A stretch of DNA of 64,000 bases, taken from Deltaproteobacteria bacterium. GTDB lineage: Bacteria; Myxococcota; Myxococcia; Myxococcales; SZAS-1. Below are positions 17,349-34,099 of this stretch, piece by piece; positions within the stretch are counted from its first letter, which is position 1, and every line of letters begins with the position of its first letter. The notes beneath the pieces are model-generated. The model made no database searches. It saw nothing but the letters and a program-made list of their open reading frames with translations, and was not told where the DNA came from. The position numbers and the translations under genes were made by a program. The DNA lies in assembly GCA_018266075.1 (NCBI GenBank), contig JAFEBB010000020.1:1-64000 (forward strand). The letters run 5' to 3'.

Positions 17349-18311
17349 TTACTGGACGACGTCGTACTGCTTGTTGACCGTGCTGCCGTTGCGGTCGATT
17401 TCGATCTCGATGTGGCTCGAGTCTTTCAACTTGGCATAGGCCTCGAGGGCCTTGTCCGGGCTGTTGATCTCGAAGCCGTTGATGCGGCGGATGACGTCGC
17501 CGTTCTGGACGCCGATCTTCGAGTAGATGCTGTCGGGCCGGATGCTGAAGAGCTTGAAGCCGGTGGCCACGCCGTCCTTGAAGGCCGGCACGATGCGCGC
17601 CTGCATGGCCACGTCGTTCAGGTTCGACAGTGTCTTATCCAGTTCCGACTTCTGGACTTGATACTTGTTCTCGCCCACGGACCTGATGCCATTGCCGTTG
17701 ACGGTGGAGGGCGGCGGTTCGGTGTTGGCGACCTCGGTGGGCTTGGCCACGATGGCGGCCACGGGGCCGTTGCCCTCCTTGTCGTCGATGTACTCGCGGT
17801 GCCCGTTGTTGAGCACGATCACGCAGCCGTTGGGCTGGTCGTCCTTCGAGAACTCGGTGCAGTCGTCGAGGATGTCGAGGACCTTGGCGCCCTGGATTCG
17901 GTCGTCGACCATGTACGTGTCGTTGGTGTGCGCCTGCGTGTCCTCGATGACCGCGAAGGACCAGTACTTGTTCGTGGAGACCGTGGTGCCGAGCAGCCGC
18001 ACGTGCAGGGTGGTGTGCAGCGGCACGGAGGTGAGGTCGTCCTTCTTGGCGTCGCCGAGCGCGGGCTCCTTGAGCGCCACCTCGGGCTTGGGCAGCGGGA
18101 TGCCGGTGACGCGCGACATGGCCTCGGGATCCAGCCGGGTGGCCATGGCGTAGGCCGGCCGCGGCGCGGTCGACACTGGCGGGTTCACGTCGGGTGCACC
18201 CGCCAGCGCGCTCTCGGTGAACACGTTCAGCGCGCGCGCCACGAGCAGCGCGGCGAGCGCCAGGAAGAGCAGGTTCACTGCCCAGAAGTACTTGCGAAAC
18301 AAGAGCTCCAC
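17349..18311 (-). CDS. gspC: type II secretion protein GspC
   Basis: 320 aa, first gene of the operon. It has one N-terminal membrane segment (about 9-28), a HR domain (about 95-185, LHTTLHVRLLGTTVSTN) that in GspC proteins contacts secretin N0, and a C-terminal PDZ domain (about 235-320, FKLFSIRPDSIYSKIGVQNGDVI). GspC bridges the inner-membrane platform and GspD and may bind substrates. The start is a GTG at 18311, with GGAG 6 nt ahead. A perfect sigma-54 promoter lies at 18345-18360, so a leader of about 23 nt is predicted. Confidence 0.92.
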   Translation of the reverse strand: MELLFRKYFWAVNLLFLALAALLVARALNVFTESALAGAPDVNPPVSTAPRPAYAMATRLDPEAMSRVTGIPLPKPEVALKEPALGDAKKDDLTSVPLHTTLHVRLLGTTVSTNKYWSFAVIEDTQAHTNDTYMVDDRIQGAKVLDILDDCTEFSKDDQPNGCVIVLNNGHREYIDDKEGNGPVAAIVAKPTEVANTEPPPSTVNGNGIRSVGENKYQVQKSELDKTLSNLNDVAMQARIVPAFKDGVATGFKLFSIRPDSIYSKIGVQNGDVIRRINGFEINSPDKALEAYAKLKDSSHIEIEIDRNGSTVNKQYDVVQ

Positions 18312-18344
18312 GCGCCGTCTCCACCACCGGTTACCAGGTCATCA

Positions 18345-18360
18345 AGCAAGCCAGGTGCCA
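18345..18360 (-). promoter_or_regulatory. sigma-54 (-24/-12) promoter of the gsp operon
   Basis: On the minus strand the sequence reads TGGCACC-TGGC-TTGCT, an exact fit to the -24 (TGGCAC) and -12 (TTGC) elements with the obligatory spacing. The predicted start of transcription is near 18334, about 23 nt before the gspC GTG. A pair of TGTCACG half-sites lies 109-145 nt upstream of that point, where an enhancer-binding protein would be expected. Not experimentally shown. Confidence 0.75.
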
Positions 18361-18442
18361 TGAGGGTCGGATAACCCAAGGCCCCAAACAGCCCGAAAAT
18401 TCCGACGTTTGCCCGGCAGGCTGGCAAGCAGCCGGGACAAAA

Positions 18443-18479
18443 TGTCACGCCGTTCGGCCGCACAGGACCGGGCGTGACA
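18443..18479. promoter_or_regulatory. TGTCACG dyad upstream of gspC: enhancer site and/or terminator
   Basis: Inverted repeat TGTCACGCC (18443-18451) / GGCGTGACA (18471-18479), centres of the TGTCAC cores about 30 nt apart. The same TGTCAC core occurs twice upstream of the second gspC (19349-19355, 19381-19387), so it may be the binding site of a shared activator. On the minus strand the stem is followed by TTTT, so it could also act as a terminator for the gene ending at 18485. Both uses are possible. Confidence 0.5.
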
Positions 18480-18484
18480 AAGCG

Positions 18485-19264
18485 TCAATCGCGGAGCTCC
18501 AGGGCGATGTTCCGCGTCGAGCCCGCGCGCTCCAGGGAGACGACAGCGTGGCTGGCCGTGAGCAAGGCGGGCAGGTGGGCAGCGAGTGCGTCCAGGTTTC
18601 CGACGTCGATGCCGTCGACGCTGTGGATCACATCGCCGACCTGCAGGCCCAGCGCGGCAGCTGGACCGCCAGGCTGCACCCACAGCGCCGTCACGCCGCT
18701 GATTCTGCCGTTCTTCAGAACCGGGAGTACGCGCGCGCTGGTCAGCCAGAGATTCGGATCGGCGGCCAAGCGATTGCGCTCTACGTGGGTCAGCGTGGCC
18801 ACGACGTCGGGCTCGCGCTCCGAGCGCGCAGCCGCGATGGGACCGTCGAGGCCGACCGAGTGCAGCGTGTCTCCGCACCGGACGATCGCCCGGTCGCTCT
18901 CGACGGACTCGAGCACGCAATCGCCGAGAGAATCTCCGGGCAAGAGCGGCACCGCGCCGCGGCCTTCGTCGAGCAGCGCCCACGACCACGCGGCGTGATT
19001 CGACAAGACCGCCCCGCGCAGGTGCGCCATCGGCGGCGCCGGCGCCGGCGCCAGTGGCTGCGGTGCGCGCGGGCTGATGCCGAACACGCGCGCCATCTGG
19101 ATTTCGTCGAGTGTCACATGCGGATTGGGCGCCGGACTGGACAGTTTTGGCACGAAGAACAGTGGCTCCACGGCGGCGTCCACCACGGCGCTCACCGCCA
19201 GGGCGATGAGCAGCGCAGCGGCACCGACCCCCATCAAGTCCAGCCAGCGAAAGGCGCAGCGCAT
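18485..19264 (-). CDS. free-standing second GspC-like PDZ protein
   Basis: 259 aa with the same plan as GspC: an N-terminal membrane segment (about 9-33), a linker rich in Pro/Ala, a HR-like domain (about 85-150, HLRGAVLSNHAAWSWALLDEG and GDSLGDCVLESV), and a C-terminal PDZ domain (about 185-259, GVTALWVQPGGPAAALGLQVGDVI). I chose the ATG at 19264 because GGGAG lies 5 nt before it and because a TTG start at 19297 falls inside the promoter. It has its own perfect sigma-54 promoter (19293-19308). It may be an alternative GspC giving the secreton different substrate or secretin contacts; that is inference. It ends 173 nt upstream of gspC. Confidence 0.8.
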   Translation of the reverse strand: MRCAFRWLDLMGVGAAALLIALAVSAVVDAAVEPLFFVPKLSSPAPNPHVTLDEIQMARVFGISPRAPQPLAPAPAPPMAHLRGAVLSNHAAWSWALLDEGRGAVPLLPGDSLGDCVLESVESDRAIVRCGDTLHSVGLDGPIAAARSEREPDVVATLTHVERNRLAADPNLWLTSARVLPVLKNGRISGVTALWVQPGGPAAALGLQVGDVIHSVDGIDVGNLDALAAHLPALLTASHAVVSLERAGSTRNIALELRD

Positions 19265-19292
19265 GATCGCTCCCGGGAATGGCTTCCGGGAG

Positions 19293-19308
19293 AGCAAGCG
19301 CGGTGCCA
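19293..19308 (-). promoter_or_regulatory. sigma-54 (-24/-12) promoter of the second gspC
   Basis: Minus strand TGGCACC-GCGC-TTGCT, a perfect -24/-12 match with correct spacing. Predicted transcription start near 19282, leader about 18 nt to the ATG at 19264. It shares the TGGCACC-N4-TTGCT form with the gspC promoter. Confidence 0.75.
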
Positions 19309-19348
19309 GCGGGAAGTGCGCGAGATCGCGTGCGTCGATCCGGTCGCG

Positions 19349-19387
19349 TGTGACAATCGGCGCCGATCGACACGCGTCGATGTGACA
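19349..19387. promoter_or_regulatory. putative enhancer-binding site cluster upstream of the second gspC
   Basis: Two TGTGACA (TGTCACA on the minus strand) elements at 19349-19355 and 19381-19387 are direct repeats 32 nt apart, roughly three helical turns. Between them are a perfect palindrome ATCGGCGCCGAT (19356-19367) and a dyad ATCGAC-ACGC-GTCGAT (19366-19381). The cluster lies about 67-105 nt upstream of the predicted start at 19282, a normal distance for an NtrC-type activator. The response regulator gene ends at 19388, so the cluster fills the gap. Confidence 0.5.
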
Positions 19388-20800
<1,413 letters not shown>

Positions 20801-21234: not shown

Positions 21235-24200
21235 CTACGGTGTGAGCACCCGCACCGACGCGGGTTCGAGCTGAATGCCGATGTAGCGGCCGCCGTCGTC
21301 CGGGTATTCGACGATGTCCGAGAAGTTGGCGTCGAGCTGCGCGGCGGAGTCGTTCTGCCAGGTGCCGTCGGCGGCCTGGTGGAGCACGAAGAACCCCGGG
21401 AAGCCGAAGCCGGCGGCCACGATCTCCGCGCCGCCGTCGGGCAGGTCCACCTCGAAAGCTCGGCGCACGACGCCGCCGTTGTTGTTGAGGCCGGCGACGG
21501 GCGCGGCGAGGCCCACGCCCGTGGTCTCGTCGAAGGCGAAGAGGCCCTGGCTGCTGCCGCAGCACGGGTTGGACGGGAACCCGCGGATGTTTCCGCCGTT
21601 CTGGCCCGGGCAGCCCGCGGAGCCCTCGATGAGGACGATGGGCGCGTCTTGCACGAAGGTGCCCTTGTTGTCCTGGCCGCAGCTGGGCCAGAACCCGCCA
21701 CCGCCGTCGGTGAGCTCGGTGCCACCGAAGAGGAAGGGGCCACCGTCCGCGGACACGAACGGACTGCCACTGGGCTCGGTGACCACCAGCGCGCCTCCCG
21801 TGTACACCGCGTACCGGAAGCCGGACTTGTCGACGCCGTAGGCCGCCAGGTTCTGGAGCGCGCCGGAGGCCACCACGCTCGTGGCCGGGTCCACGGAGAG
21901 GCTGCTGCCCTCGGCCGTGAGGTGCAGCGCGTGCACGTCGCCGCTCTGGAGGTCGGCGAGCAGCGCCCAGGCCGCGTCGTCGCGGGCGGGATCCGCCCAG
22001 AGGCTCTGCACCTGGTCGATCATCGTCAGCGTGCCGGCGTCGGTGAGGAGCGGGACGGGCGTGGGGCTCGCGTCGATCTGGGTGGCGTCGGGGTAGCGCA
22101 GGGCCACCCAGCTGCTTCCTTCGACGGCCAGCGTCCAGAGCTCGCCGCCGTTGCGCAGGGCGATGCCGGTGGGCGAGGGATCCATCGTCTGCTCCAGGCT
22201 CATGTACGCGAGGCTGCTGCGGACGCCCGGAGGCCCGCCCTGGCTGGGCGGCGTGTTGTCGGCGGTGGCGAAGAGGTCGATGGAGCGCGCGAGGATGTCC
22301 TCGGCGGCCACGAGCGTGCCGCCGTCCACGGCGATGACCGAGAGGCTCGCCACGATGCCGGACACTTCATACTGCTCGCCCTCGGAGAACTGACGCTTGG
22401 CGGCGCCGGGGTAGAACTCCAGGCCCGCGGTGGTGGCGATGCAGAGGTCGTCGAGGCCGTCGCCGTTGAAGTCCATGGCCGCGAGCGCCGTGGGCTGGAC
22501 CTCCGCGGACCCGCCGTCGGCGGCCTGGCCGGGCGACTCCAGCGCCGGCAGGTGGTGGGCCACCCACGGGTCGAACTCCAGTTGGCAGCTCCCGTTGCGG
22601 TGCAGGAGCAGCCAGCGCTCGCCCGCGAAGCTCTTTGTCCGCGACACGCCGAGCGCGATGGCGCGGATGGACGGGAGCGGCACGGCGTCGATCACGGACT
22701 CGTCGGGCGCCAGGGTCTGCTCCTGGCCGCCGCCGGGCAGGCCGACGTTCTGGAGATCGGTCACGCTGCCGCCGCACGCGCTCCCCGGCGGATCGAAGGT
22801 GACCAGCTGCGAGCCGCCGCCAGCGGGGAGGTTGATGGCGTAGAACGACTGCCCGCCCACGTCGTCGAGGGTGGCCAGGCCCACCAGGTTCATCGCCTTG
22901 TCGTTGGCGTCCGGGTTCACCGGGGTGCTGAAGAGCGTGCCCGGCGAGGCGATGCCGTCGAGCTCCGCGAGGTTCTGGGTGCCGCCGTCCTGCCGCACGC
23001 TCATGAGCTCCGCGGCGCCCCAGGGCTGGCCGTTGACGTCGGTGGCCACGAAGACCCGCTCCGGCGAGCGATCGGCCTGCTGGGCCGGGAGCGGCTTCAC
23101 CTGGCCGCCGTCGTTCTGGAGATCGAAGCCGATCTGGCCGAGCACCTCGTCCACGTTCACCTGGAACCCGCCGACCACCAGCAGCTGCCCGGGCGCGAGC
23201 AACCCGGGGAAGCCGTCGCCGCAGTAGGGCATGAGGCCGCGCGAGAGGCGCCCGCCGCCCGGGAGCGACTCGTAGAGCTCCACCGCGCTGCTCGTCGCGG
23301 GCGTCGCCGGCACGGGCACGCCGCACACCCGGCAGCTGAAGTCGCCCTGGCCGTCGTTGGCGCAGGCCGCGTGCGGCCCGCCATCGGGGACGCCGCACGA
23401 GTTGCTGAAGCACGCGAACTCGTTTGGGCCCGGGCCCGGGAGGCAGTCGGCCGGGCCGCAGTCGTAGCCGCCGAAGCCGTCGTCATGGCACTGGAAGAGG
23501 CCGCAGTCGAAGGCGCCGGGCCCGGTGGAACGGCAGGGGAGCGGGGTGCTGCCACCGTCGGGCTCGTTGATGAAGGCGCCGCAGGTGTAGCCGCCGTCGC
23601 CGAAGGGCTGGTAGCACTGGGAGTGCGTCTCGCTGAGCACGCAGTTGCCATTTGGGCCACAATTCACCGCCGCGTTGCAGAGCAGATTTCCGGAGTTGGT
23701 GGTCACGCAGTACTTCGAGCACTGAAACTGCGGGCCGTAGGTCTGGTAGCCCGCGTCCGCCGGAACGCAGTCGAGTTGCGCGCCGTCGTCGCTGCAGTGG
23801 AGGCCCTGCGCGTCGACGGTGCAGAGGACCGAGGTCTCCGAGCCGCTCGGGGTGTACTCCGGGGCGTAGCACTGCGGGTTGTTGTTGCTGTCGAGCCCGC
23901 AGCCGAAGAGCTGCGAGCCCGGGCCGGCGTCGGGCCAGCAGGCAGACTGCGGATGCGGGTTGCAGTCGGGCGTTAAGTTCTTGCCGCCGCCGCCCAACTG
24001 ATGGGCCTGCTGGTAGCGCACGAGCACGTCGGCCATGCCGTCGCCGGTGACGTCCGCGAGCGTCACGTCCTTCACCTGGTTGTTGCCGCCGGGGATGATG
24101 AGGTTGCGCCCCGTCGTGGGGACCGCTCCGCCGTACACGAACCCGAGCGTGGCGCTTCCGCCCACGTCCAGGCCTTGCAGCATCAGGTCCTGAAAGCCGT

Positions 24201-25185
24201 CGCCGTCGACGTCGCCCACGCGCAGGGTCTGGGGCACGAGCACCGGCGCGCTGAGCTGCGGGTTGGCCACGGTGACGTACAGGTCGCTGCTCGGGACGCC
24301 GGCGTTGGGATCGTCGTCCACCAGCAGCAGGTGATCCACGGTGTTGGCGTTGGGCCCGGCGGTGTACGTGAGGCCGTTGACGCTGCCGTGGCTGGAGTTG
24401 CCGTTCCAGGCCAGCTCGAAGTGGAAGGTGCCCGCGCCGCGGCCTCCCGAGGCGGAGAGGCTCACCAAGTCACCGGGGCGCACCACGCCGGAGACGGGCG
24501 ACGCCACCAGCGGCGGGAGCTGCGAGGCGGGCGTGTTCACCGAGACGGTGAGCTGCACCACGTTCGCCGGGTTCGGCGTGGCCGCGTTGAACTCCACGGC
24601 GTCGAGCGCGGTGTACGTGTACGTGTTGGTGCCGGTCGGATCGTAGGGCGGGAGCAGGAACGTGATCTGGGTGAGGGTGCGATCGACGATCTGGAACGGC
24701 GCGCCCGCGTCGCAGGTGCCGAACGACGCGCCCGCCGGCGGGAGGATCTGGTAGGGCGCGGCGCCGCCGCCCACGGTGACGTGGACCTCGCTGCACTCGT
24801 TCCCCGAGGTGCCCTGCTGCGAGGCGGAGAACGGCGCGCCAACGGTCACGGTGACGTCGAAGGTGCCGCCGTCCCCGTCCGTGACGTGCACCACGTCGCG
24901 CTGGTTTGGGTTGAGGCAAGCCGCGTAGCTGGAGATGGCGCCTCCATCGTCGGGCGCGAGCAGACCGCAGCCTCCATCGAGGTGCAGCTCCGACGAGTAC
25001 GTGAACGGCGGCACACCGCTGGTCACGGTGAGCGTGTCCACCTCATCGGGCGCGGGCGTGAGCGTCGAAGGGGAGACCTTGAGCTGGGGCGGCGGGGACG
25101 GAGGCGCGTTCTGGGTTTGGGGCGCCGTGAAGCTCCGGCCGCAGCCCGCCAAGACCACCAAGGCCACCAACGCCACACGCCGCAT
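21235..25185 (-). CDS. large Cys-rich FG-GAP/VCBS-type lipoprotein
   Basis: 1316 aa from the ATG at 25185 (GGGGAG Shine-Dalgarno 5 nt ahead). The N-terminus is a lipoprotein signal, [15 protein letters not shown], with Cys at about residue 15, then Pro-rich, Ig-like beta domains (about 35-300). FG-GAP/VCBS calcium-binding blades are seen in [30 protein letters not shown] and [18 protein letters not shown] (DxDxDGxxD pattern). Between about 420 and 640 is a remarkable stretch with more than 25 cysteines, in short units such as [19 protein letters not shown]. Surface protein of unknown function. Repeated DGG spacing is typical of myxobacterial secreted proteins. It could be exported by the adjacent T2SS. 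Confidence 0.85.
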
Positions 25186-25243
25186 GGATCGCTCCCCGCT
25201 CACTGTCGGGGATTAGATGCGGAGCGCTGCCTGGCGTCCAGCG

Positions 25244-28291: not shown

Positions 28292-30640
28292 CTACGCGCG
28301 CTTCGCGCTCCGCCGCGTATGCTCGAGCAGCAGCTTCCGCTCTGCGCTGCCCACGGCGTTTCGCGCCGCATCCACCGCGTCGGCGTTGACGCTGATCGAC
28401 GTGATGCCGAAGCGCACCAGGTGCTCCGCGAACTCCGGGCGATTCGACGGCGCCTGCCCGCAGAGCGACGAGGTGAGGCCATGCGTGCGGCAGGCGCTGA
28501 TGATGCGTGCGATGGCGTCGAGCACGGCGGCGTCGCTCTCGTCGAAGAGCTCGCTGCAGGTCTCCGAGTCGCGATCCACGCCGAGCATGAGCTGGGTCAG
28601 GTCGTTGCTGCCAATGGAGACACCATCGATGCCCAGGCTGGCGTACTCGGGGATGCGGTACGCCACCGACGGGACCTCTGCCATCACCCAGCGATGCAAG
28701 CCGCGCTGCTTGCCCAGCGGGCTGCGGTCCACCAGCTCGAGGCACGCCTCCAGCTCCCACTTCGTCCGGACGAAGGGGATCATCAGGTGCAGGTTGGGCG
28801 TCTCCTCGCGCACGCGGGCCAGCGTCTCCAGCTCGAGCTGGAAGAGCTCCGGGTCGCGCACGTAGCGATAGCAGCCGCGATACCCGATCATCGGGTTCTC
28901 TTCGCGTGGCTCGAACTTCTCGCCGCCGCTGAGGCCCCGGAACTCATTCGTCCGGAAGTCGTACGAGCGGTACACCACTGGCCGGTTCCCGAACGGGCGC
29001 GTGATCTGCAGGAGGGCGCGGCTCATCGCCTCCACGAACTGCGCCTTGCCGCCTTCGGCGATGAGCTGCTTGGGGTGCTTTCCGCCCAGCGCGCCGCTGA
29101 TCATGAACTCCGCGCGCAGCAGGCCCACGCCGTCGACGGGCAGCGCCGCGGCCTGCTCGGCCTGCTCGGGCATGGCCAGGTTGACGTAGAGCTTCGTGGC
29201 CAGCGGCTCGCGCGAGAAGGCCACGCTCCGCACCGCCGGCGTGACCACCGGGCGAGCGGCGACGGCGCCCGCCGAGACGATGCCCTTGTCACCGTCGACG
29301 GTCACCTGCTCGCCGTTGCGCAGGACACGGGTGGCGCTTCGCGTGCCGACCACGCACGGCAAGCCGAGCTCGCGGCTCACGATCGCGGCATGGCAGGTCA
29401 TGCCGCCGCCGTCGGTGACGAGCGCCGCCGCGCGACGCAAGGTTGGCAGCCAATCCGGCGACGTCATCGGCGCGACCAGGACCTCGCCGCGCTGGAGCTG
29501 CTCGCCCTCGCGGGGATCGCGCAGCACGCGCACCGGCCCGCTCACGACGCCCGGCGATGCGGCGAGCCCGGTCACCAGCGGCGTGCTGGGCTGTGGCGAT
29601 GACGTGGTCGCGGCCGGCGCGTCGTGCAGGGTGGTGATGGGCCGCGACTGCACGAGCACGAACCCCTGGCCCTCGTCCGCCCACTCGATGTCCTGGGGCT
29701 TGCCGTAGTGGGCCTCCACGCGCACGGCGAGGTCCGCCAACTCCAGCGCCTCCGCGTCGGTCAGCACGCGCGCATGGGCGATCTCGGGGCTGAGGCTCTC
29801 CTTGCGGTCGTGGCCGTCGTCGCCGCGGACGATGCGGAAGCTCTTCTCTCCCACCCGCGCTTCGACGATCGCGTGCCGGCTGCGCGAGACGACATAGGTG
29901 TCGGGTTCGACCTGGCCGCCGACCACCACCTCGCCGAGCCCGAAGGCGCCCTCGATGACGATGCGGTCGCGGTTGCCGTGAGAGGGATCGACCGTGAACA
30001 TCACGCCCGCTCGCCGCGACTCGACCAGCCGCTGGACGACCACGGCGATGGTGGGCTCTTCGGTGAGGCCGCGCGCCTTGCGGTAGGCCACCACGCGCTC
30101 GCCGTACAGCGAGGCCCAGCAGTCGATGATGCGCGCGAAGAGCTCGGCTTCACCGCGGACGTGCGTGAAGGTCTCGTGCATTCCCGCGAACGAGGTGCCG
30201 GCGGCGTCCTCCGCGGTGGCCGACGAGCGAACCGCGACGACCGCGTCCGCCCCGAGCTTGGCGAAGGCCGCGGCGATGGGCTTGCGCACCGGGGCCGGCA
30301 GCTCCACGCGCTGCACGAGCGCGCGCATCTCCGCGCACGACCGCGCCAGGTTCGCGGCGCTCTCCGCAGAGGACGACGGATCCGCCGGCACCGCCCCGAA
30401 CCTCCGCTGCAGCTCGGCGCGCACGCCGGCCGCCTCCAGCGTGGCCAGGAAGGCCTCGGCCGTGACCACGAATCCCCGGGGCACCGTGAACCCCGCGCCG
30501 ATGAGCTCGCCAAGGTTCGCGCCCTTGCCCCCCACGTGGGAGACGTCGCGCAGGGACACGCTGTCGAGGTCCATCACCGCGCGCGGCGACGTGTTCGCCA
30601 CCGTGCCCGTGGGCACGCCATTGGATTGCTCCACAATCAT
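28292..30640 (-). CDS. ppsA: phosphoenolpyruvate synthase
   Basis: 782 aa from the ATG at 30640; the frame upstream is not PpsA-like. The N-terminal ATP-grasp domain begins [20 protein letters not shown], includes [25 protein letters not shown]. The phosphohistidine domain has [20 protein letters not shown] (His about 413), and the C-terminal TIM barrel ends with [18 protein letters not shown]. The full set of catalytic residues is present. PpsA makes PEP from pyruvate at the cost of two ATP equivalents, which suits a gluconeogenic or low-energy state. It overlaps the uspA-like stop by an ATGA. Transcribed after the SDR and UspA genes from one sigma-54-like promoter. It ends 3 nt from the convergent TPR gene. 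Confidence 0.95.
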
Positions 30641-31062
30641 GTCCGCCTCCGCTTGATCACGAGAACGTCGCACTTCGCTTGCTCGAGAACGTCGCTGGTC
30701 ACCGCGCCGAGCTCTCCGTGCTGCGAGCCGTCGCCGTGGGCGCCGACGACGATCACGTCCGCCTTTGCGTCGCTTGCGGCTTCGCAAATGGCCGTCGCGC
30801 GCCGGCCCTGACCCACGACCAGGCTGCACGCCAGCTGCTTCGGCATGCTGTCGCGCAGCGCCTCCAGGCCGCGCATCAGCTCGGCCCGCATGCGCTCGTC
30901 CAGGCGCCGCTCGTCGACGCTCGTGTCGAGCTCGCTCACCGCGACGTCGGGCGCGCGGAAGAGCACCAACCGGGCGCCGGTGGCGAGGGCCAGGTCACGC
31001 GCGGCGGCGAGCACGTCGCGCGCGCTCGGCGCGACATCCAGGGCGGCAAGGATGCATTTCAT
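30637..31062 (-). CDS. universal stress protein UspA family
   Basis: 141 aa single Usp domain: N-terminal [20 protein letters not shown] and C-terminal DVIVVGAHG...[17 protein letters not shown]. The ATP-binding loop G-2x-G-9x-G(S/T) is degenerate: G107-AH-G110 is followed by eight residues and GA instead of nine and GS, so it may be a non-ATP-binding type. Cytosolic. It lies 15 nt after the SDR gene and overlaps ppsA by 4 nt. UspA proteins respond to starvation and stress. Confidence 0.88.
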
Positions 31063-31077: not shown

Positions 31078-31839
31078 CTACTGCGCCACGTACCCGCCAT
31101 CGACCAGCATGGGGTGGCCGTTCACGAACGACGCATCCTTCGAGGCCAGGAAGAGCACCGCCTTCGCGATCTCCGCCGACTCGCCCAGGCGGTGCGCGGG
31201 GTGCATGGCCGCGATCGCCGCTTCCATCGCGGGCTCGCGGGTGATGCCCGCGCGCTCGAGCATCGGCGTCTTGATGAAGCCCGGGCACACCGCGTTGATG
31301 CGGATGCCGCGCGCGGCGAACTCGATGGCCGCCGTCTTGGTGAGGCCCAGCACGCCATGCTTCGCGGCCACGTAGGCGCCCGCGTTGGCGAAGCCCACGG
31401 TGCCCAGGATGGAGGCGTTGTTCACGATGGCGCCTGCGCCCTGGCGCGACATCACCTGCAGCTCCTGCTTCATGCAGTGGAAGACGCCGCTGAGGTTCAC
31501 GGCCAGCACCCGCTGCCAGTCGGCTTCCGCGAGGGCGTCGAGTGGGGCCTGAGCGCCCTCGATGCCTGCATTGTTGAAGGCCACGTCGAGCCGGCCGAAC
31601 GCCTTCACCGTGCCCTCCACGAGCGCCGCCACCTGCTCGGGATCGGAGACGTCGCAGGCGCGACCCACCGCCCGGCCTCCGGCCTTCTTGATGGTGCTCG
31701 CGGCGCGCTCGGCGGCGCCGGGGTTCACGTCCGAGACCACGACCTGGGCCCCTTCGTCTCCAAACGCGAGCGCGGTCTCCAGGCCAATGCCCGAGCCTGC
31801 GCCGGTAACGAGGACCACGGAATCTGCGAAGCGCTTCAT
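31078..31839 (-). CDS. short-chain dehydrogenase/reductase
   Basis: 253 aa classical SDR. The NAD(P)-binding TGAGSGIG is at 12-19, NNAG near 89-92 and the catalytic S143, Y156, K160 triad (NASILG, YVAAK). The C-terminal VLFLASKDASFVNGHPMLVDGGY is typical. SDVNP at the second strand suggests an NAD preference (Asp at the end of beta-2). Substrate unknown. First gene of the operon with uspA-like and ppsA genes, predicted leader about 25 nt from the sigma-54-like promoter. Confidence 0.92.
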   Translation of the reverse strand: MKRFADSVVLVTGAGSGIGLETALAFGDEGAQVVVSDVNPGAAERAASTIKKAGGRAVGRACDVSDPEQVAALVEGTVKAFGRLDVAFNNAGIEGAQAPLDALAEADWQRVLAVNLSGVFHCMKQELQVMSRQGAGAIVNNASILGTVGFANAGAYVAAKHGVLGLTKTAAIEFAARGIRINAVCPGFIKTPMLERAGITREPAMEAAIAAMHPAHRLGESAEIAKAVLFLASKDASFVNGHPMLVDGGYVAQ

Positions 31840-31874: not shown

Positions 31875-31890
31875 TGCGAGCGGCGTGCCG
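31875..31890 (-). promoter_or_regulatory. sigma-54-like promoter of the SDR-UspA-PpsA operon
   Basis: Minus strand CGGCACG-CCGC-TCGCA. Positions match the -24/-12 layout (GG and GC spaced exactly), with CGGC for TGGC and TCGC for TTGC. Transcription would begin near 31864, 25 nt before the ATG at 31839, with AGGGG in between as Shine-Dalgarno. Confidence 0.55.
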
Positions 31891-31913
31891 GCGGTCGTTC
31901 GCCGGCAGTCGAG

Positions 31914-31999
31914 TGCGCGGGCGCGCAGCGCGTGCGTCGAGCTGAGGCTTGGCCGTGCTCGGGCGCAAGGCCTGCACTTCATCGCCGCGGGCGCGCCCG
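31914..31999. promoter_or_regulatory. dyads between the divergent sigma-54-like promoters
   Basis: TGCGCG-GG-CGCGCA (31914-31927), and CGGGCGCGCCCG (31988-31999), a perfect 12-bp palindrome nested in a larger ATCGCC/GGCGAT pair (31981-32010). The first is 80-130 bp from the start of the right-hand unit, where an activator could sit. GC-rich DNA produces such dyads by chance. Confidence 0.3.
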
Positions 32000-32010
32000 T
32001 CGCGGGCGAT

Positions 32011-32026
32011 TGGCACGCCGCCTGCT
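32011..32026 (+). promoter_or_regulatory. sigma-54-like promoter of the small-protein/CBS operon
   Basis: TGGCACG-CCGC-CTGCT: a full -24 element and a -12 element with one change (CTGC for TTGC). Predicted start near 32037, about 22 nt before the ATG at 32059. It shares the literal string GGCACGCCGC with the divergent promoter. Confidence 0.6.
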
Positions 32027-32058
32027 CATGTGGTTCGGGACTTCACATGGAGGGACAC

Positions 32059-32232
32059 ATGATCCGCAGCACCAAGAAGCAGAATCGCGGCAACCGCATC
32101 ACCACCACGCTGGGCTCGCTCCTCTCGGCGGCCTACGAGGTCTCCGGCCAGGAGCCCCGCCGCGCCGCGGCCATGCTCGAGCGCGGCGAGCTCGGGCGCC
32201 TGCTGGTGGGCGCCAAGCTCAAGTTCCTCTAA
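32059..32232 (+). CDS. 57-aa basic protein
   Basis: MIRSTKKQNRGNRITTT..., ending RLLVGAKLKFL. Positively charged N-terminus, then an amphipathic helical middle (LGSLLSAAYEVSGQEPRRAAAMLERGELGRLL). GGAGGG lies 5 nt before the ATG. No known family. It is the first gene after the sigma-54-like promoter and 20 nt ahead of the CBS gene. The position suggests a stress-time regulator or ribosome-associated factor; that is a guess. Confidence 0.65.
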   Translation: MIRSTKKQNRGNRITTTLGSLLSAAYEVSGQEPRRAAAMLERGELGRLLVGAKLKFL

Positions 32233-32252
32233 GGCACCTACGCGGAGGCAAC

Positions 32253-32948
32253 ATGAACCCGACCGCCAAGACCTGGGATCCCGAGCGCATCACCGTGCAG
32301 CGACGACAGACCCTCGGCGGCGCGTCCTCGGACGGCCCGGCCGAGACGGTCCACTGTCCGGCCCGGGAGCGAACCCTCTCGCTCGATGAGTGCCTCGAGT
32401 GCCACGCCTCGGACGGCTTCGTGGACGAGAACGGCTCGCGCTTCGTCCGCTGCCGGCGGCTCGCGCTCGCCGGGCAGCTCCAGCCGCGACGACATGGGCG
32501 GCTCGCGGAGGCTGCGGCGAGCCAGGTGTTCGAGGTCATGTCCGCCGATGTGACCTGCGCGCGCGAGGACCTGAGCGCCGAGGAGCTGGCCAAGCTGCTG
32601 CTCGAGCGCGGCTACCAGGGTGTGCCGGTGGTCGATGGGGAAGGGCACCCCACAGGTGTGGTGTCGCTCGCGGACCTCGTCGCATCCGTCGACGCCAACA
32701 AGCCGGGCGCGCGTGAGGTGCTCCGCGATCGAGACGGCGCGCTCGCGGATCGCAACGTGGGCGAGCTGATGACGCCGGGCGCGGTGGTGGTGTCCGAGTC
32801 GGCGAGCGTCTTCGAGGCCGCGCGGCTCATGGCGCACCGACTGATTCACCGGCTCCCGGTGGTGAACGGCGAGAACCAGGTGGTGGGGGTGATCACCTCC
32901 ATCGATGTGCTGCGCTGGCTCGCCTCCCAGGCGAAGACCGAACCCTGA
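32253..32948 (+). CDS. CBS-domain pair protein with N-terminal zinc-ribbon-like motif
   Basis: 231 aa. A Cys-rich N-terminus (CPARERTLSLDECLECHASDG...VRCRR, about 35-68) has four cysteines that could bind zinc. Two CBS domains follow: about 93-150 (VFEVMSADVTCAREDLSAEE, VSLADLVAS) and about 165-225 (VGELMTPGAVVVSESASVF, ITSIDVLRWL). CBS pairs bind adenine nucleotides such as AMP, ATP and SAM and report energy state. The Shine-Dalgarno GGAGG is 5 nt before the ATG. It is convergent with the PfkB gene. Confidence 0.85.
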   Translation: MNPTAKTWDPERITVQRRQTLGGASSDGPAETVHCPARERTLSLDECLECHASDGFVDENGSRFVRCRRLALAGQLQPRRHGRLAEAAASQVFEVMSADVTCAREDLSAEELAKLLLERGYQGVPVVDGEGHPTGVVSLADLVASVDANKPGAREVLRDRDGALADRNVGELMTPGAVVVSESASVFEAARLMAHRLIHRLPVVNGENQVVGVITSIDVLRWLASQAKTEP

Positions 32949-32969
32949 GCAGGACCTGCGCTCCGGACC

Positions 32970-33899
32970 TCAGAGCTCGACCAGCTCGACGTCCGGAGCG
33001 AGCCGTGCCACATCGTCTGCGGTGCCCAGCGCGGTACCCGGGCGCATCGCCGTCGCCGCGCCAGCCGCCGTTCCCAGGCGGAGACCCTGGTGGAGCGGCA
33101 GCGCGCGCGCCAGCGCCACCGCGATGCCCGCCACCATCGAGTCTCCCGAGCCCACCGTGCTCTGAACCTCCACGCGTGGCGGCCGCACGTGCCACGCCGC
33201 TTCCGCGGTGGCGCAGATGGCGCCGTCACCGCCCATGGAGATCACCGCAGCGCCGAGGCCGCGCGCCACGAGCTCGCGCGCCGCTGCCACGATCGCCGCG
33301 CGATCGCCGAGAGGACGGCCGAGCAGCGCCTCCGCCTCGCGGACGTTCGGCTTGATCACGTCGGGTCTCGCCTCCAGCCCGCTCAGGAAGCACGGCCCCG
33401 AGGCATCCAGGACCACGCGAACCCCGTGCGTCCGTGCGCGCGCGATGAGCCGCGCATACACGTCGTCGGGCACACCGGGCGCCAGGCTGCCAGCGAGCAC
33501 GAGCACGCGTCCGGCCTGCATCCAGAAGTCGAGGGTCTCGAGCAGCTCGCGGAGCGCGCCCTCGTCCACCTTCGGGCCGGCGTTGTAGAGGCTGGTGCTC
33601 CCGTGCGAGGCGCCGTCCACGACGGTGACATCGATGCGGGTCTCACCGGGCACGCGCACGAAGTGGCTTTGAACGCGCTCCGCGTCGAGCGCGGCCTGCA
33701 CCATGTCGCCAGTGTGGCCTCCGAGGAATCCAAAGGCCACGGTTGGCCAGCCCAGGCGGTGCGCCATGCGCGAGACGTTGATGCCCTTGCCGGCCGGGTC
33801 GAGCTGCGCGGCGCGAGAGCGGTTCACCTCGCCGAGCTGAAAGCGCGGAACCCATGCGGTGAGATCCACGGCGGGGTTCACGGTCAACGTCAGGATCAT
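32970..33899 (-). CDS. PfkB-family hexose kinase (1-phosphofructokinase-like)
   Basis: 309 aa. Starts MILTLTVNPAVDLTAWVPRF, the typical opening of PfkB/LacC/FruK proteins. GKGINVSRMAHRLG (37-50), NAGP, and the catalytic STVGSGDSMVAG motif with Asp253 are present. The substrate is a sugar phosphate: 6-phosphofructokinase (Pfk-2), FruK or tagatose-6-phosphate kinase are all possible. No PTS gene is nearby, which favours the Pfk-2 role. A weaker sigma-54-like site lies at 33931-33946. It converges with the CBS gene. Confidence 0.88.
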   Translation of the reverse strand: MILTLTVNPAVDLTAWVPRFQLGEVNRSRAAQLDPAGKGINVSRMAHRLGWPTVAFGFLGGHTGDMVQAALDAERVQSHFVRVPGETRIDVTVVDGASHGSTSLYNAGPKVDEGALRELLETLDFWMQAGRVLVLAGSLAPGVPDDVYARLIARARTHGVRVVLDASGPCFLSGLEARPDVIKPNVREAEALLGRPLGDRAAIVAAARELVARGLGAAVISMGGDGAICATAEAAWHVRPPRVEVQSTVGSGDSMVAGIAVALARALPLHQGLRLGTAAGAATAMRPGTALGTADDVARLAPDVELVEL

Positions 33900-33930
33900 G
33901 GCTCGCTCCGACGGCGTCAGCGCCTGTGAC

Positions 33931-33946
33931 TTCATGGGCCGTGCCA
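33931..33946 (-). promoter_or_regulatory. weak sigma-54-like site upstream of pfkB-like gene
   Basis: Minus strand TGGCACG-GCCC-ATGAA. The -24 element is perfect, but the -12 element has only the G of TTGC in register. Predicted start near 33921, 22 nt before the ATG. The same leader length as the two neighbouring promoters is the main reason for listing it. Confidence 0.35.
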
Positions 33947-34099
33947 TGGACGTGGTGGCGGGGGATGGAGCTGACGCTGCAGCGCTTGCGCTCACCGCCA
34001 AGGAGGCGCAGGCGTTGCGGGCGTCATCGCCTGGCCCCCCCCGGCGCGCGCTGCGCGGGTCTTGCTCCTTCTGCGCACGTGAGGCGATCACCCCAATCC

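Follow-up and report, generated by a model that had tools for sequence, protein, structure and literature searches.

The analysed window covers 64,000 nt, positions 1-64,000 of contig JAFEBB010000020.1 (GCA_018266075.1), from a myxobacterial genome of 7.84 Mb in 166 contigs (G000). In this window, a minus-strand group of genes encoding a short-chain dehydrogenase (SDR), a universal stress protein (Usp) and a PEP synthase (PPS) is separated by 219 bp from a plus-strand pair encoding a 57-aa protein and a CBS protein, and a PfkB-family kinase gene lies on the minus strand beyond this pair (Table 1). With gaps of 15 nt between the SDR and Usp genes and 20 nt between the 57-aa and CBS genes, in addition to the overlap listed in the table, SDR-Usp-PPS and 57-aa-CBS are plausible operons.

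Table 1. Genes, sigma-54 elements and NmpR-type boxes in the window. Mismatches of -24/-12 elements were counted against TGGCACGN4TTGCW.
Feature	Position	Strand	Remarks
ppsA, pyruvate, water dikinase (PEP synthase)	28292..30640	-	Pfam PPDK_N/PEP-utilizers; final gene of SDR-Usp-PPS unit
Universal stress protein (Usp)	30637..31062	-	Pfam Usp, 61 bits; 4-nt overlap with ppsA
Short-chain dehydrogenase (SDR)	31078..31839	-	Pfam adh_short_C2; leads minus-strand unit; ATG 31839
57-aa protein	32059..32232	+	ATG 32059; homologues in G000 contig C2 and in G060
CBS protein	32253..32948	+	Pfam CBS, 108 bits; two CBS domains, Cys-containing N-terminal segment; homologues found
PfkB-family kinase, 1-phosphofructokinase type	32970..33899	-	Pfam PfkB; TIGR03828 above cut-off; ATG 33899
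-24/-12 element CGGCACGCCGCTCGCA, SDR-Usp-PPS	31875..31890	-	predicted start 31864; 2 mismatches
-24/-12 element TGGCACGCCGCCTGCT, 57-aa-CBS	32011..32026	+	predicted start 32037; 1 mismatch
Weak -24/-12 element TGGCACGGCCCATGAA, kinase gene	33931..33946	-	predicted start 33920; 2 mismatches
NmpR-type box GCGCAGCGCGTGCGT	31923..31937		1 deviation; common to both divergent promoters
NmpR-type box GCGCAAGGCCTGCAC	31963..31977		1 deviation; 25 nt from box 31923..31937
NmpR-type box GCGCAAGCGCTGCAG	33977..33991	-	2 deviations; promoter-proximal, kinase gene
NmpR-type box CCGCAACGCCTGCGC	34006..34020	-	1 deviation; 14 nt from box 33977..33991
-24/-12 site TGGCACCGCGCTTGCT	19293-19308		one of two best in window; activator/PDZ operon
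-24/-12 site TGGCACCTGGCTTGCT	18345-18360		one of two best in window; activator/PDZ operon

The PPS protein exceeded the cut-off of TIGR01418 and is thus a true pyruvate, water dikinase. The kinase had been labelled Pfk-2-like in the initial annotation, but it belongs to the 1-phosphofructokinase (1-PFK) type instead, scoring 328.5 bits against TIGR03828 (cut-off 292); the Pfk-2 identity was rejected (NF007632, 169.6 bits, below the cut-off of 353). The 57-aa protein matched no Pfam or NCBIfam family, and its single-sequence fold consisted of three helices with a mean pLDDT of 70, too weak for a structure search. A first scan of the genome contigs with the CBS protein as query gave no match.

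A -24/-12-like site had been claimed ahead of each of these three units, and all three were confirmed, as was the sequence common to the two divergent sites, GGCACGCCGC. The 22-25 nt given as their spacing holds for the distance from the predicted start site to the ATG (25, 22 and 21 nt for the SDR, 57-aa and kinase genes), but not for that from the end of the -12 element to the ATG (36, 33 and 32 nt, respectively). Each element points to its gene from within 400 bp of the start, and two of them are weak matches. The GG at -24, the GC at -12 and the 10 bp between them are present at 31875 and 32011; the kinase site at 33931 has the GG at -24 but GA for GC at -12. With an approximate sigma-54 matrix, the sites at 31875, 32011 and 33931 scored 11.4, 15.8 and 11.3 and ranked 6th, 3rd and 7th in the 64 kb, so that 32011 alone stands out; this matrix and the register window used below were chosen here, partly after the sites had been seen. 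The two top-scoring sites (18345 and 19293) belong to a separate activator/PDZ operon. Across the window, matches to TGGCACGN4TTGCW with up to 2 mismatches were no more frequent than by chance (9 vs 11 expected).

Genome G000 carries one copy of rpoN, the sigma-54 gene, and 52 matches to sigma-54 activator domains, about 40 of them full-length. The 66 G000 sites with at most 1 mismatch to TGGCACGN4TTGCW are nearly all intergenic, many of them beside activator genes, and most lie 10-90 nt ahead of a start codon. Because near-consensus sites in this genome are nearly all intergenic and mostly stand just before gene starts, the 32011 match is very likely a genuine one. It is this location relative to genes which speaks for the -24/-12 consensus in G000, and not the genome count of the strict TGGCACGN5TGC (21 vs 66 in the reversed control), which provides no evidence. 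In relatives, strong -24/-12 sites are frequent at CBS genes.

Upstream of the three elements lie two pairs of boxes resembling the enhancer of Myxococcus xanthus NmpR, which consists of paired GCGCA-N5-TGCGC boxes (PMC11841059). The GCA-N5-TGC core is perfect in 4/4 boxes. One pair is centred between the divergent promoters, its distances to their two -24 boxes being 34 and 33 nt (33 nt for the SDR site at 31875); the second pair is 31 nt from the -24 box of the kinase site. The three sites therefore have a common upstream layout, a pair of GCA-N5-TGC boxes with a spacing of 25 or 14 nt and, after another 31-34 nt, a -24 box. In M. xanthus, nmpU and one gene each for a CBS protein and a Usp are described as controlled by NmpR; box spacings there are 14-15, 24 and 5 nt, the 5-nt spacing is published for pilR, and a 28-nt box pair did not bind NmpR (PMC11841059). 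Compared with these spacings, the kinase pair has 14 nt and the divergent pair, with 25 nt, is off by one from 24. Judged by its geometry, the central pair (31923-31977) can serve both divergent promoters.

The full layout occurred exactly three times in the window, each time at one of the flagged sites, and was found in 0/500 dinucleotide shuffles of the whole window and in 0/5000 shuffles of each of the two intergenic regions. When the published NmpR rule served as the model for a looser scan (per box up to 2 deviations from GCGCA-N5-TGCGC, and 5-50 nt between the boxes, these thresholds being external), the same three sites only were returned, and 1/200 shuffles reached three. Single NmpR-type boxes showed no excess in the window (16 vs 21 expected); only their paired, phased arrangement did. 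Counts of -24/-12 matches and of single boxes are not evidence, since neither was enriched. In stretches of G000 totalling about 0.63 Mb with overlaps, 14/16 layouts fell into one 6-nt register bin (30-35 nt), against 0 in the reversed control, and this fixed register lends credence to the two weak promoters at 31875 and 33931. A loose whole-layout pattern was also counted across the order (21 vs 10 in the control for G000, 17 vs 3 for G109, 13 vs 2 for G060); many genomes of the order had no excess, and the pattern was judged too unspecific.

In the relative G109, a homologue of the CBS gene adjoins genes for an NtrC-type activator, Hsp20, Usp proteins and more CBS proteins, with sigma-54 sites ahead of the activator, the Hsp20 gene and a second CBS gene. 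The orthologue of NmpR in G000 (C17:16781-18115) is 74% identical to this activator and is flanked by genes for a hybrid kinase, a response regulator and a protoglobin histidine kinase, in a neighbourhood of Usp, CBS, acetate kinase and cytochrome bd genes. The top PDB match of the protoglobin kinase was the globin-coupled histidine kinase 5ohe (1.4e-56). Judged by its genes, the C17 locus is the NmpRSTU system of M. xanthus, and loci of the same gene content are present in Archangium, Pyxidicoccus and Corallococcus. The stretch C17:4001-24000 as a whole holds the NmpRSTU-like locus, cydAB, acetate kinase, two Usp genes and one CBS gene, several promoters having the NmpR-type layout. A CBS-rich locus on contig C16 of G060 has perfect NmpR box pairs, one of them symmetric between divergent genes.

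Outside the window, G000 has the same layout ahead of Usp, CBS, cytochrome-bd, nmpU and P-type-ATPase-Usp units. Besides the three units of the window, the regulon predicted on the basis of the layout, from the examined stretches (about 0.63 Mb with overlaps) and pattern matches, comprises Usp-nmpU-nmpT-nmpS on C17; a unit encoding a 102-aa protein together with Usp, and a 90-aa protein on its divergent side; cydAB (cytochrome bd) behind the gene of a release-factor-like protein; DoxX and, divergent from it, a CBS protein; P-type ATPase-Usp; an ATPase resembling PilB/GspE; a membrane protein resembling YgaP; and Hsp20 (contig C13, L194:8051-8521, minus strand), where the sigma-54 site is strong and two boxes with 5-nt spacing lie 33 nt from its -24 box. 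Units led by the layout include 4/10 of the Usp genes of G000. Divergent promoters with the layout were found at three places in G000 (in the window, on C17 and on C8), all of them symmetric and with 25-nt spacing.

The systems of G000 and M. xanthus share an NtrC-type NmpR with a hybrid kinase, response regulator and protoglobin kinase, as well as paired boxes before sigma-54 sites and CBS, Usp and nmpU among the targets (PMC11841059). M. xanthus NmpR is worked by a haem oxygen sensor and its targets are driven under low oxygen; the targets named include cbb3 oxidase, hemN-hemerythrin and pilR, and in the text consulted PEP synthase, SDR and 1-PFK are not among them (PMC11841059). In contrast to these, the targets predicted here add PEP synthase, SDR, a 1-PFK-type kinase, cytochrome bd and the 57-aa protein, and divergent promoters appear to share one central pair. 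The type of system is known from M. xanthus; newly predicted are the set of targets and the sharing of an enhancer by divergent promoters. The AfGcHK/Nmp homologue of Anaeromyxobacter sp. Fw109-5 is likewise a globin-coupled oxygen-sensing kinase; there, nmpR lies upstream of nmpS in opposite orientation, as in the C17 locus, a CBS gene adjoins nmpU, and the target genes are stated to be unknown (PMC11841059).

The boxes, their spacing and register, rpoN and the NmpRSTU orthologues are present in the G000 sequence, and from these we infer that the three units are co-regulated and that NmpR binds and induces them. They probably form a segment of the NmpR regulon of G000, a low-oxygen sigma-54 programme. 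Because likely sigma-54 promoters coincide with matching paired NmpR sites, this island of genes for stress and for PEP and sugar-phosphate metabolism is probably switched on at low oxygen, the direction of the response being taken from M. xanthus by analogy. The sigma-54 control of all three units suggested by the initial annotation is supported at the sequence level by the single rpoN, the working consensus and the paired enhancers in fixed register, and its energy or low-oxygen programme gains support from the enhancer match and from the NmpRSTU orthologues with their protoglobin kinase. Its interpretation was thus right for the most part, and NmpR can now be proposed as the specific regulator.

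By analogy with M. xanthus, NmpU would be active and NmpS silent in the presence of oxygen. When oxygen falls, the protoglobin kinase NmpU would stop signalling, and the hybrid kinase NmpS would phosphorylate the NtrC-type activator NmpR. NmpR would then bind the paired GCGCA-N5-TGCGC-like boxes and activate the sigma-54 polymerase at the -24/-12 elements, which lie 31-34 nt away. The symmetric pair at 31923-31977 would serve the SDR-Usp-PPS and 57-aa-CBS promoters, and the kinase gene would rely on a separate pair, spaced by the canonical 14 nt. Such a circuit may control PEP and sugar-phosphate flow and the adenylate state as respiration slows; that PEP synthase and the 1-PFK-type kinase serve at low oxygen to hold PEP and sugar phosphates is our guess.

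As alternative activators of the same promoters and enhancers, two NmpR paralogues on contig C12 (C12:128206-129555 and C12:131407-132735) have to be considered, in which case the signal might not be oxygen. Both flank a Usp gene and are 55-56% identical to NmpR over the full length; with recognition helices near-identical to that of NmpR, they may recognise its boxes as well. However, the strong sigma-54 promoter beside C12a is without a box pair, whereas several promoters around nmpRSTU on C17, that of the Usp-nmpU operon included, carry one, and we regard control by a paralogue as unlikely. Slightly less likely still is that 32011 alone is a real sigma-54 promoter and that the SDR and kinase sites are chance matches, with housekeeping promoters in use. 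The scores of these two sites are ordinary in 64 kb, and the kinase site has the altered -12 element; but both are in register with enhancer pairs, promoters of the same set scoring as low as 9.5-10.2 still keep this register, and no sigma-70-like site was found in the three-unit region, though this test is weak where DNA is GC-rich. DNA of this composition often contains single GCGCA-N5-TGCGC-like boxes and loose -24/-12 matches, and GC-rich palindromic intergenic DNA might mimic boxes and promoters with no common regulation; the shuffles and the share of layout-led Usp genes make this very improbable. The window's own sigma-54 activator (19388-20800), 11 kb off and beside the two strongest -24/-12 sites, was rejected as the regulator because its recognition helix differs (AARTIYRKLERE), and with no composite NmpR-type layout found by its sites there is hardly any chance that the units belong to its regulon.

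Regulation by NmpR would extend a very recently described oxygen-sensing regulon of M. xanthus to an uncharacterised myxobacterial family, through a promoter layout that is precise and searchable. PEP and sugar-phosphate metabolism would then be predicted to lie within the reach of low-oxygen signals. A broader proposal, towards which we lean somewhat less than against it, is that NmpR promoters follow a strict, helically phased grammar of boxes 14 or 25 nt apart and about 33 nt from the -24 box (in a few cases 22 or 44), that a symmetric 25-nt pair fires two divergent promoters, and that in this lineage an oxygen sensor wired to PEP synthase and the 1-PFK-type kinase sets central carbon flow, as the sigma-54 counterpart of a dormancy programme.

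The genes of the DosR regulon of M. tuberculosis include Usp, CBS, PfkB-type and Hsp20 genes, and DosR is a LuxR/NarL-type regulator that works without sigma-54. In both systems, haem oxygen sensing would lead to a response regulator, and the sets of Usp, CBS, Hsp20 and PfkB genes resembling the mycobacterial dormancy regulon are predicted to be assembled under sigma-54 here. The comparison with mycobacterial dormancy made in the initial annotation stands only as an analogy: the regulator here is of the NtrC type, and a DosR-like box (up to 3 mismatches) had 0 matches in the window.

The low-oxygen Usp loci of Pseudomonas and Burkholderia are under FNR/Anr-type control. The FNR/Anr box TTGATN4ATCAA had no match between 28400 and 47211, the flagged intergenic regions included. 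These loci are induced by low oxygen (cited in PMC11841059), as predicted here for Usp, but no FNR-like box is present at the flagged regions. In the window as a whole, FNR-like matches with up to 2 mismatches numbered 12 vs 3.6 expected (0/100 shuffles), mostly at 1-21000 and in coding DNA, with none in the flagged region.

The 57-aa protein belongs to a short-protein family with a T-LG-L-AA core, of which three members were found. A -24/-12-like site lies upstream of each (the window copy, the paralogue on G000 contig C2 and the G060 homologue), and an NmpR pair was present at the window copy only. Since none was found at the paralogue or the G060 homologue, the family itself is not tied to NmpR.

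Elsewhere in the window, the minus-strand region 17349-20800 encodes a response-regulator sigma-54 activator followed by two PDZ-domain proteins, one of them weakly similar to type II secretion protein C. A large FG-GAP repeat protein (1322 aa) is encoded by the minus-strand region 21235-25203; it resembles a TcdB-middle-type domain weakly, scoring below the cut-off.
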